From assembly GCA_020532085.1 (NCBI GenBank), contig JAJBAV010000001.1, positions 124,001 through 188,000 of the forward strand: a stretch of 64,000 nt of DNA. The letters run 5' to 3'. Positions 14,797 through 48,678 of the stretch are shown one piece after another. The notes beneath the pieces are model-generated. The model searched no databases. It had not been told where the DNA came from and saw only the letters and a program-made list of their open reading frames with translations. Position 1 is the first letter of the stretch; each line of letters begins with the position of its first letter. This DNA comes from Candidatus Cloacimonadota bacterium. GTDB taxonomy: Bacteria > Cloacimonadota > Cloacimonadia > Cloacimonadales > Cloacimonadaceae. The position numbers were made by a program, and so were the translations under genes.

Positions 14797-15130
14797 CCGG
14801 CCATTACCCACTCGGTTTGAAAAAGAGCCAAAGAAAAAAACAAGCTTTGGATTGCTACTTGCGTAAAAAACGCGGATCGCCACACCCAGAGGGGCTTTGG
14901 ACTTCAGACAGCGAGGGTTGATCCGCAGCCAACAAAACCAGACCCTGTTTGAAGCCCAAGCCGGCCAAGCGATTGCGTTTGTTTCAACTCTATACAGCCG
15001 GCTAGGACTCCATAGCTTACAATGCATACGTCATCCCGGACTTGATCCGGGATCCAGCCCCGCAGCCGGAGTGGGGATAGCTTGGTTTCTGGAATGAATC
15101 GCCGCAGGGTGTGGCAGTTTTAATAGTTCT

Positions 15131-15413
15131 AATAATTCACAAGTTCCCCTTATACGGGGGAAACCGATTTTAATGATTCTCCAAATTCACTGATTCTCTC
15201 TTTACGGCCCCGCCGGAGGGGGCATTTGCCGGTAATGACAGCACATGGACGGAAGACCATATATTACATATATATACCTATATAACTACTAATACCTACT
15301 ATATTACTATATATTATATCTATATAGTATATCTATCAGTATCTTATATATCCTGGACCTGGTTCTGGACCGGGGTTTATAAAAAGGGGCCGTATAGGGT
15401 GAATTGGTGAATT
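15131..15413. repeat. arm/AT-core/arm element, unit 1
   Basis: The left arm begins AATAATTCACAAGTTCCCC and runs to TACGG. It is followed by a GC-rich stretch, an AT-only core whose 53-nt heart (15267-15319) recurs in units 2 and 3, a CCTGGACCTGGTTCTGGACC segment, and an opposite-strand arm GGGGCCGTATAGGGTGAATT. The left arm is more diverged than in the other units. Confidence 0.75.
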
Positions 15414-15441
15414 TGGGGAATCATTAAAATTGAATGATTCG

Positions 15442-15676
15442 AATAATTCACAAGTTCCCTTTATACGGCCCCGCCGGAGAGGGGTTCTGGGAAAAATGGC
15501 ACAACCAGGACTTAAACTCCTATATACCATATATATACCTATATAACTACTAATACCTACTATATTACTATATATTATATATAAGTATATATATAACAGA
15601 AACTTGGACCCTCTTCACCCCGGTCTTGGATGAGACAAGCCAAAAGCGGCTATATAAGGGGAATTTGTGAATTATT
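15442..15676. repeat. arm/AT-core/arm element, unit 2
   Basis: 235 bp. Left arm AATAATTCACAAGTTCCCTT..TACGGCC and right arm GCGGCTATATAAGGGGAATT..GAATTATT form an imperfect inverted repeat. The AT core heart is at 15528-15580, identical to unit 1 over 53 nt. A GGTCTTGGATGAGACAAGCC segment separates core and right arm. The 93 nt at 15387-15479, which join the right arm of unit 1 to the left arm of unit 2, are repeated exactly at 15733-15825. Confidence 0.8.
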
Positions 15677-15787
15677 CGGATCATTCAAACCAGCCCTGGT
15701 CGATTGGGTTTAGAGGAAGCTTGGAACGGGGAGGGCCGTATAGGGTGAATTGGTGAATTTGGGGAATCATTAAAATTGAATGATTCG

Positions 15788-16023
15788 AATAATTCACAAG
15801 TTCCCTTTATACGGCCCCGCCGGAGGTGAGAATTGTCCAAATAGACAACACCTGGATGTATAGTCATATATAGCATATATATACCTATATAACTATTAAT
15901 ACCTACTATATTAGTATATATTATATCTATATAGTATATATATCAGTATATTACATACCCTTCTCCTGGTCCTGGATGAGTCAAGCCAAAAAGCGGCCGT
16001 ATAGTGGGAATTTGTGAATTATT
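15788..16023. repeat. arm/AT-core/arm element, unit 3
   Basis: 236 bp, nearly the same length and layout as unit 2: left arm, AT core (heart 15874-15926, two differences from the other copies), GGTCCTGGATGAGTCAAGCC, then right arm GCGGCCGTATAGTGGGAATT..GAATTATT. An extra right-arm copy (from 15733) precedes it. No reading frame of interest crosses the unit. Confidence 0.8.
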
Positions 16024-16210
16024 CGAATTACTCATTTTCATTTTTGCACCTAAACCAAATCCTCCGAATTGACAACCGCTGTTTTTTCAACGGCGTCATC
16101 CCGGAGTCCATTACGTCATCCCGGACTTGATCCGGGATCCAGAAAAAGAACTGGATGCCAGCCCTCCCACCCGGCGAACTCGCTGCGCTCGCTCACGAGG
16201 ACCCCGGCGT

Positions 16211-46490: not shown

Positions 46491-46515
46491 AGGCCGGCCT
46501 CAGCGCCGGCCTTTT
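46491..46515 (+). terminator. rho-independent terminator of the kor-mce operon
   Basis: Stem AGGCCGGC/GCCGGCCT with a 6-nt loop and a short T-tract, 43 nt after the mce stop. Confidence 0.8.
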
Positions 46516-46633
46516 CCTGTGCCGGATATAAAGCCCGTCATTCCGGGCGGAGGCTAGCGTCGAGCTAGCTGGCGTCGAGAGAGGAACGAGCATCGACTAC
46601 AGCTGAACATCCCTCTCCCCGCCTCAAACGCAC

Positions 46634-46679
46634 GTCATTCCGGACGCAGGTGCTTCAGCGCCGGAGATCCGGAATCCAG
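46634..46679. repeat. 46-nt GTCATTCCGG module, plus orientation
   Basis: Exact reverse complement of 16355-16400. It begins GTCATTCCGGACGCAGGTGC and ends GGAATCCAG. A 38-nt partial copy with the same start is at 46811-46848. It contains CTTCAGCG in its middle, like the palindromes nearby. Confidence 0.85.
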
Positions 46680-46810
46680 GCCTTGTCCTGTCAATTCTTC
46701 GGGAGCACTTCACCAATCCAGGCGTTATCACCTGAAGAGCCGGACTGGGTGTCATTCCGGGGTGGGGGCCCCGGAATCCAGAAACAACCACCGCCCAACC
46801 CCAAACGCAC

Positions 46811-47032
46811 GTCATTCCGGACGCAGGTGCTTCAGCGCCGGAGATCCGTCGGGGTCCTCGCCGGACAACTTGTTGGCCGGTGGGGTGAATCGAATCCAGG
46901 CCTGGCGGGAATAGCCCATCCCGGACACAGGCAAATGCGGGGTCGATCCAGACGCAGTCTGCATCGACACCTCCCCAGGGCATTACCCGGACCGTCTGGA
47001 TTCCGGGCGCTACTTTGTCGACCCGGAATGAC
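46811..47032. repeat. cluster of GTCATTCCGG-type dispersed repeats
   Basis: A partial 46-nt module (46811-46848) is followed by a module of about 128 nt (46905-47032) that starts GCGGGAATAGCC, contains CCAGGGCATTACCCGGACC and ends CCCGGAATGAC. The longer module has a close copy at 48086-48212 and an inverted relative at 16211-16349. Matching GTCATTCCGG and CCGGAATGAC ends allow long hairpins. Confidence 0.8.
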
Positions 47033-47172
47033 GTAGCGGTGGAGTATTCGGGTGAGAACATCCGGAATGACGCAACGGTGATGTATTCAGGTGAGAACGC
47101 CCGAAATGCAGCTTAGGCTGTCCTCACTCGATTTGAAAGAGAGCTGGATTTTGGGTTTGGAAACACTGGGCG

Positions 47173-47612
47173 GTTCCTATTCTGGATCCTATCAGAACCC
47201 TTTAGCAGAGCGGTTTTAGGGTATATAAAGCACAAAAAAAGCCTTCTCCTCCCTCCCCGGCGGAAGGGCTGACAAGGTAGAGTGTATATAGCCGCTAATG
47301 CTATATCTTATTAATCTATATATAGTTATATTATATATTTATTATATTATTATATATTTTACTATTACTATATAGATACAAGCTCAGCATCCTCACTTTT
47401 CACTTCCTCCAGCGTGTCCTGGATCCTGGCCATGAGTCCAGGTCCTGGATCAGGTTCCAGGGTCTGGGGTAGGTTCCAAGATCTGGGGTCAGGGTAGAAA
47501 AAACCTCTGTTTTCAGCCTTCCGGCGGCGGGGGAGGAGAGGCCGATTTCTGTGCTTTATATACCCTAAACCCTCTCTGCTAAAGGGTTCTGATAGGATTC
47601 AAGATAGGAACC
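47173..47612. repeat. 440-bp arm/AT-core/arm element in the second repeat island
   Basis: Arms of 63 nt (47173-47235 and 47550-47612) are inverted copies with a few mismatches, and pairing continues inward through a CCTCCC/GGGAGG-rich stretch. Between them lie an AT-only core (about 47285-47388) and a segment with repeated CCTGG/CCAGG words (CAGGTCCTGGATCAGG). The order matches the units at 15.1-16.0 kb although the arm sequences differ. No protein-coding signal is seen. Confidence 0.8.
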
Positions 47613-47656
47613 GGCAAAATGCTATCAAAAATCAAATTGAGATGGCATCCCCTCTC

Positions 47657-47781
47657 CGGAAGGTCGACGTCCCCGTCGACCACAAAAATGGAGTGGCAGA
47701 CATCCCCGCCATTCACACCTCGAACTCGCTGTGCTCGTCCGCGAGGACCCCGAGCCAAGGCCCGGAGGGCCTTTCAGAACC
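47657..47781. repeat. direct repeat, copy 1 (partner 48241-48395)
   Basis: The last 95 nt (47687-47781) match 48301-48395 with one mismatch, and the first 45 nt (CGGAAGGTCGACGTCCCCGT onward) match 48241-48285. The text includes ACTCGCTGTGCTCGTCCGCG and GGCCCGGAGGGCC. A related ACTCGCTGCGCTCGC word is at 16180. Confidence 0.85.
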
Positions 47782-47814
47782 GAAACCCAAGCCCCCGCGG
47801 GAAAAGACGGAAGG

Positions 47815-48044
47815 CGGTGGCTTCAGCCACCGTTCCCGGGCCTCAGCGGCGAGGGAGAGACGATCTCCGGCGGTTTCAACCGCCGGCTGACGCCATCCTC
47901 CTGTATCCAGTGAAAAGGCCGTAAACGCGACCTCCGGAGGCCGTAGAGGGCGAATCACCGGGTGTATTGCCGGTGCTTGAAAGCACCGGACATCGTCTAT
48001 TTGGGGGTCGGTCCCCGGGCGGTGTACGGTGGCTGAAGCCACCG
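47815..48044. repeat. series of palindromes with TTCA/TGAA centre
   Basis: Four hairpins in 230 nt: CGGTGGCTTCAGCCACCG (47815-47832), CCGGCGGTTTCAACCGCCGG (47867-47886), CCGGTGCTTGAAAGCACCGG (47970-47989) and CGGTGGCTGAAGCCACCG (48027-48044). The centre is constant while the stem bases change in pairs. A fifth lies at 48854-48869 (CGCGGCTGAAGCCGCG), and the A arms at 14.5-14.8 kb have a similar centre. Confidence 0.8.
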
Positions 48045-48085
48045 CCTTCCGTCTGCTGTCCTCCGGACAAACGGGTCCAAGCCTT

Positions 48086-48212
48086 GCGGGAATAGCCAAC
48101 CGATACCAGGCAAATGCGGGGTCGCTCCAGACGCTGTCTGGACCGACACCCTTCCAGGGCATTACCCGGACCGTCTGGATTCCGGGCCCGACTGCGTCGT
48201 CCCGGAATGACG
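48086..48212. repeat. long GTCATTCCGG-type module, copy 3
   Basis: Close copy of 46905-47032: GCGGGAATAGCC start, GGCAAATGCGGGGTCG, AGACGCTGTCTGGACCGACA, CCAGGGCATTACCCGGACCG and CCCGGAATGAC end. The middle word GTCCAGACGCTGTCTGGAC is itself nearly palindromic. Confidence 0.8.
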
Positions 48213-48240
48213 TAACCATAGCGTATTCAAATGGGCTCCA

Positions 48241-48395
48241 CGGAAGGTCGACGTCCCCGTCGACCACAAAAATGGAGTGGCAGACGTCCCCATCGTAACA
48301 AATGGAGTGGCAGACATCCCCGCCATTCACACCTCGAACTCGCTGTGCTCGTCCGCGAGGACCCCGAGCCAAGGCCCAGAGGGCCTTTCAGAACC
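48241..48395. repeat. direct repeat, copy 2 (partner 47657-47781)
   Basis: 48241-48285 and 48301-48395 match the partner. Here the shared AATGGAGTGGCAGAC word appears twice 30 nt apart, as if part of the unit had duplicated. Confidence 0.85.
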
Positions 48396-48678
48396 CAAAG
48401 ACAAGCTTCTCCGAAGCTTCACATACGGGGACGTCTGTGACTCCTGTGAGGCGCCACCACTCCACCCCGCCAAACCTCCACCCCGACGCCACCCCACCAC
48501 TCCAATACCTCAAAACACCCCCCAAACCGCATCCCATTCACTTCCCATGAACTTCCCCCTGACTTCCCGCCCAACAGGCGGGAACTCAGCGGGAGGTTAG
48601 CGGGAGGCGTATGGGAGAGGGCAAAGGGCAAGACAAGGTTTCCATTCAAACCGAGAGGGTGGAAGCGATCATCCAGCC

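Follow-up and report, generated by a model that had tools for sequence, protein, structure and literature searches.

Replication modules in which repeats lie directly downstream of the gene for an initiator helicase with a C-terminal DNA-binding domain are known from SaPIs and SCCmec elements, where Cch is a DUF927 protein and relative of SaPIbov1 Rep, and Cch2, which has a putative origin, is related to SaPI5 Rep (PMC7581432). On the archaeal plasmid pRN1, a stem-loop of ~100 nt, of unconserved sequence and without iterons, lies just 3' of orf904, which encodes a primase-helicase-winged-helix protein of the SF3 helicase type, and is needed for replication (PMC4234260). DUF3987 domains have been predicted as helicases of mobile elements (PMC5862659). 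In the portions of the PICMI account considered here, the search model for these satellites (DUF3987/DUF5906 primase) uses DUF3987 for the replication protein, the satellites carry int, alpA and fis, and no origin of the kind discussed below is described (PMC10803314). More generally, AT-rich regions and repeats are cited as origin elements (PMC7145576).

The locus studied here is a 443-nt inverted repeat in a 64,000-nt stretch of Candidatus Cloacimonadota DNA, the whole of which is referred to as the window. This block is likely to be an iteron-type origin of replication from a small mobile Ca. Cloacimonadota replicon, present as a copy without its gene. The reading draws on an identical, gene-carrying copy on contig C59, on the linkage of the family to DUF3987 and the predicted MCM-like fold and winged helix of that protein, on a primase gene upstream or fused, on element-specific iterons and an AT core, on the joint switching of winged helix and arms, on arm pairing confined to the iterons and on the precedent for helicase-gene/downstream-iteron origins (PMC7581432). 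The origin activity inferred from these features would involve binding, hexamer loading, melting and replication: in a complete element, an MCM-like AAA+ initiator helicase (DUF3987) would be encoded directly ahead of the origin. Its C-terminal winged helix would bind short iterons, which are arranged as mirror images in the two arms with the AT-rich core between them; this arrangement would allow two hexamers facing in opposite directions to load, melt the core and start bidirectional replication, with a linked PrimPol/PriCT-2 primase, where present, providing the primers.

The SaPI and SCCmec precedents match the Cloacimonadota element most closely, as SaPI Rep/ori and SCCmec Cch2 share with it a helicase with C-terminal DNA binding, short downstream iterons and a primase in the module, although the helicase family here is DUF3987. 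Unlike these systems, the Cloacimonadota element has much longer mirrored arms and many copies per genome, some of them gene-less, and no integrase/recombinase or phage context was found for it among the neighbors scanned. The pRN1 origin resembles it in its position just 3' of a primase-helicase-winged-helix gene and in its unconserved sequence, but the Cloacimonadota element has iterons, is ~440 nt long and is associated with a predicted MCM-like fold. Points of novelty are the putative MCM-like DUF3987 initiator, the very long mirrored arms, the modular exchange and the [winged-helix + origin] cassettes described below.

The coordinates of the features are collected in Table 1. The arms are 97 nt each, 87% complementary and 249 nt apart; the original prediction had correctly recognized inverted arms, but its length of 63 nt corresponds to the best-matching outer block only. 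Likewise, the AT core is real without being AT-only, its longest pure A/T run spanning 36 nt (47326-47361), and G+C content of the core is 4-17% as compared with 58% for the window. This AT-rich region adjoins iterons, which in the window element number only two to three per arm, are partly degenerate and consist of the outer repeats and inner site of the left arm mirrored in the opposite arm. Five CCWGG sites lie to the right of the core; the CCWGG-rich segment is found in the subfamily of the window element and in that of the 15-kb units but missing from many other elements. Cores like that of the window element occur in G010:C86, G010:C63 and G000:C6.

Table 1. Features of the two window elements and of related loci (window positions unless a locus is named).
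Feature	Position	Strand	Remarks
First element	15115..16053	+	three overlapping gene-less units of second subfamily
Stretch identical to contig C59	47022..47701	+	680 bp; both ends in dispersed repeats
Inverted repeat (window element)	47171..47613		443 nt
Left inverted arm	47171..47267	+	carries A-tract and C-tract besides repeats and inner site
Left-arm outer repeats	GGTTCCTAT 47172-47180; GGATCCTAT 47184-47192	+	
Left-arm inner site	TATATAAAGCACA 47222-47234	+	
AT-rich core	47286..47380	+	~90% A+T; candidate melting region
CCWGG-rich segment	47417..47480	+	
Right inverted arm	47517..47613	+	
Right-arm mirrored sites	TGTGCTTTATATA 47550-47562; ATAGGATTC 47592-47600; ATAGGAACC 47604-47612	+	
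5'-truncated DUF3987 copies	L060, L061, L065, L066, L069, L070, L073, L078-L082		
~150-residue gene	L040:2164-2616, L041:8651-9097, L043:2725-3267		
~150-residue gene, further loci	L042:6369-6860, L032:8480-8926, L109:2634-3236		

A scan of the 64-kb window in 125 overlapping 1.5-kb segments, using as criterion a 70-nt core of at least 80% A+T with inverted arms, recovered an AT core flanked by inverted arms only at the two reported elements, the one above and that at 15.1-16.0 kb. The two have the same order of parts (arms, AT core, CCTGG-rich stretch) and unrelated arm sequences, both as originally described. The check on core similarity put forward with the original prediction came out negative, the two cores being no closer than dinucleotide shuffles (z 0.2-1.1), and common descent of the two cores was rejected on this ground; the elements have layout and composition in common, not sequence. 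The core of the 15-kb element matches the core behind a PrimPol-PriCT2-DUF3987 fusion gene on contig C27, and its units belong, as copies lacking the gene, to the subfamily found behind that fusion gene. The observation that the layout is kept while the sequence changes was correct and extends to ~30 further loci in several genomes.

Within the genome that contains the window (98 contigs, 2.81 Mb), a search for copies recovered the identical C59 element and also over a dozen sequences related to the 15-kb units. Many family members were located directly 3' of one coding sequence, which encodes a DUF3987 protein (PF13148, E 7e-18) and is present in this genome in 13 copies or fragments. Matches were obtained in 10 of the 41 genomes searched and, phylum-wide, in 15 of 124, mainly from the same genus, the named relatives being Candidatus Cloacimonadota MAGs. 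In this genus, an element 3' of the stop codon accompanies the majority of DUF3987 genes and remnants; where enough 3' flank was available, an AT core followed nearly all DUF3987 copies, with inverted arms in most, across several genomes. The C59 copy and most DUF3987 loci thus place the element directly downstream of the putative initiator helicase gene. With respect to the adjacent gene, the conserved core has opposite orientations on C27 and C39 (L012, L017, L081), the CCWGG side staying away from the gene despite the flip of the core.

An AlphaFold2 model of the DUF3987 protein, based on 17 sequences (mean pLDDT 79), places a C-terminal winged helix at residues 444-508, and structure comparison of the model grouped residues 95-435 with MCM AAA+ domains (VIA Z ~18, 275 residues aligned, rmsd 3.7, 11-14% identity). 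The protein is therefore probably an AAA+ ATPase of MCM-like type that ends in a winged helix, i.e. in the predicted model a helicase with a C-terminal DNA-binding domain, which agrees with the mobile-element helicase prediction for DUF3987 (PMC5862659). On C13, C20 and G006:C3 the gene preceding DUF3987 encodes BT4734-like_N and PriCT_2 domains, and on C27 these domains are fused to DUF3987. No relatives of the helicase were found in plasmid and viral collections, the stand-alone helicase had no match in PADLOC, and a sequence search of solved structures gave no match. No integrase was recognized among the subset of neighbors scanned, no plasmid or phage context was found at the copies examined, and int, alpA and fis as carried by PICMIs were not recognized beside these DUF3987 copies; mobility is accordingly argued from copy number and scatter. 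At one locus (G001:C14, L112:11581-13500), a PrimPol-DUF3987 fusion gene has a Mu-type transposase gene at a distance of ~3.3 kb.

The arms contain 8-mers repeated up to eight times and different in each element (AAATAAGC, CTACCAAC/TATACCAA, AATTACGC, CTCTTCAC, CTATTCAC, AGGTCTTC, AAATTAGC and others), the repetition being weaker in the window element. DnaA boxes were present in 1 of 37 elements, and a reading based on them was dropped for this reason. The box TTGTGSSACA occurred in 11 of the 37 elements as compared with 2.4 in shuffles, but was chosen after looking and is not counted as evidence. When the window element was aligned with three members of its subfamily, Watson-Crick pairing between the arms exceeded chance for both iteron blocks, reaching 67% in the outer one (28% by chance) and 80% in the inner one, A-tract included (38% by chance). 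It was moderate, 55% against 34%, in the flank with the C-tract, and no better than chance in the spacer separating the iteron blocks (27% vs 27%). Mismatches of the G·T and A·C types were balanced (101:99) in the 25 arm pairs compared, with no excess of RNA wobble or G·U pairs. A comparison of pairing inside and outside iterons was partly circular, the iterons having been defined from both arms, and was not relied on.

Pairing confined to iterons, together with equal mismatches, speaks against RNA and is easier to reconcile with mirrored duplex binding sites than with an uninterrupted hairpin. An RNA element, in which a structured 3' UTR, terminator or non-coding RNA would act as a hairpin transcript, would suit the position downstream of the gene in complete copies and the very stable predicted fold of the 443 nt (-225 kcal/mol), but there was no Rfam match, pairing is lost in the spacer and many copies have a separate short GC-rich terminator-like hairpin ahead of the arms; such an element is very improbable, and an RNA hairpin was rejected on the missing Rfam match and the negative wobble test. 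The mismatch ratio says nothing against a DNA hairpin, and a cruciform or pRN1-type stem-loop origin, in which the replication protein would recognize the extruded hairpin and shape would be the signal, has in its favor the long, 87% complementary arms and the pRN1 stem-loop itself (PMC4234260). Paired-base changes across relatives, for which the original prediction had proposed a test, also exceeded shuffles (20 two-sided pairs vs 11.3, in four sequences), though such changes are expected because the iterons change in both arms. Given chance-level pairing of the spacer in three relatives, several elements with little complementarity beyond the iterons and a pRN1 origin described without iterons (PMC4234260), the cruciform is unlikely. 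As to the proposed function of the shape, a continuous hairpin is poorly supported; the feature retained is a set of mirrored sites around an AT-rich core, probably bound by protein, with a site sequence that varies together with the neighboring DNA-binding domain.

The coupling between protein and arms was apparent in pairs of related copies. Within a single genome, the C36 and C10 copies share 90-100% identity up to a point ~200 nt ahead of the stop codon, identity drops to 58-80% over the winged helix, and beyond the gene the two sequences match in one short stretch only; C36 with C20, and C3 with C4 in G006, show the same switch. Over 27 elements, similarity of the winged helix correlated with the number of common arm 8-mers (rho 0.43, 0 of 5000 permutations; 0.40 without close pairs), a correlation to which common descent adds because winged helix and arms are adjacent. 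The sharp switch beside near-identical ATPase sequence is, in these alignments, the stronger point, and the DNA-gripping end of the helicase appears to have been swapped together with its putative recognition site.

About a dozen DUF3987 copies have lost their 5' part, with truncation points within ~100 nt of a common position at the winged-helix boundary; what remains is the ~110-residue winged-helix part together with the inverted-repeat element. Their frames are open in nearly all cases and dN/dS is mostly 0.03-0.34, i.e. below 0.35, although much of this divergence may predate truncation. Retention of just these two parts, like the coupling of winged helix and arms, would also suit a regulatory or partition site, where the winged helix would bind the arms to autoregulate, segregate or silence and no origin would be involved. 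This is quite unlikely in view of the position of the element 3' of the gene and not at a promoter, and of the primase linkage and MCM-like ATPase character of the protein; origins, moreover, typically have an AT-rich core between iterons. Under the preferred reading of the block as an iteron origin, the common boundary, open frames and dN/dS values suggest, as a tentative and rather doubtful extension, that the genome keeps [winged-helix + matched origin] cassettes that recombine into helicase genes, gene-less origins being parasites or decoys. If so, cassettes would switch replication specificity as a unit, allowing escape from incompatibility or rival control, and gene-less origins such as the window copy would be parasites replicated in trans, or decoys. 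Independently of this extension, the findings provide DUF3987 with a probable MCM-like fold, with a candidate origin and with a DNA-binding domain that comes in many natural specificity variants, which opens initiator-origin recognition to direct testing, and the family suggests how an uncultured phylum may accumulate many replication-module copies and gene-less origins.

The C59 copy of the element lies ~330 nt behind its DUF3987 gene, which is outside the 680-bp identical stretch, and the window copy has no DUF3987 gene nearby. In G002, G006 and G008, the interval orthologous to this site, which follows the gene for methylmalonyl-CoA epimerase, has no such element; the window copy, gene-less as it is, therefore probably arrived recently, but may instead reflect a strain variant within the MAG assembly. 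The empty interval would also be expected of a non-autonomous transposon (MITE) with the long arms as terminal inverted repeats, as would dispersal in multiple copies, gene-less copies and inverted arms. Yet the arms differ between copies, unlike the terminal repeats of one family, the duplicated unit extends beyond the arms, terminating within dispersed repeats, and the gene is outside the arms, making a MITE highly improbable; a version with target duplication was rejected, as none was seen at 47171/47613. For the origin reading, gene-less copies would arise by recombination between dispersed repeats, or by replication in trans.

Intergenic DNA, at window positions 46500-48400 and elsewhere, is packed with the dispersed repeats CGTCATTCCGG...CCGGAATCCAG and GGTCGACGTCCCCGTCGACC. 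In G005 (L095), another AT-rich core with mirrored TTTCGC-type repeats is found behind the same epimerase gene. As a general element end, TTGTTACCCACTATNNATAG was discarded, since it borders some copies but not others and is absent from the vicinity of the window element. A gene of ~150 residues (FKNMLxAYxGxCDGLVYYYNPRLNR) with no Pfam, PHROG or PADLOC match is located near several copies. Several copies are flanked by the palindrome-like TTGTTACCCACTATNNATAGAGGGG (L039:7024-8951, L040:1861, L041:8383, L043:2548, L042:7199, L060 and L061), which in C2 and G010:C23 is present in inverted orientation on both sides, resembling the ends of a mobile unit.
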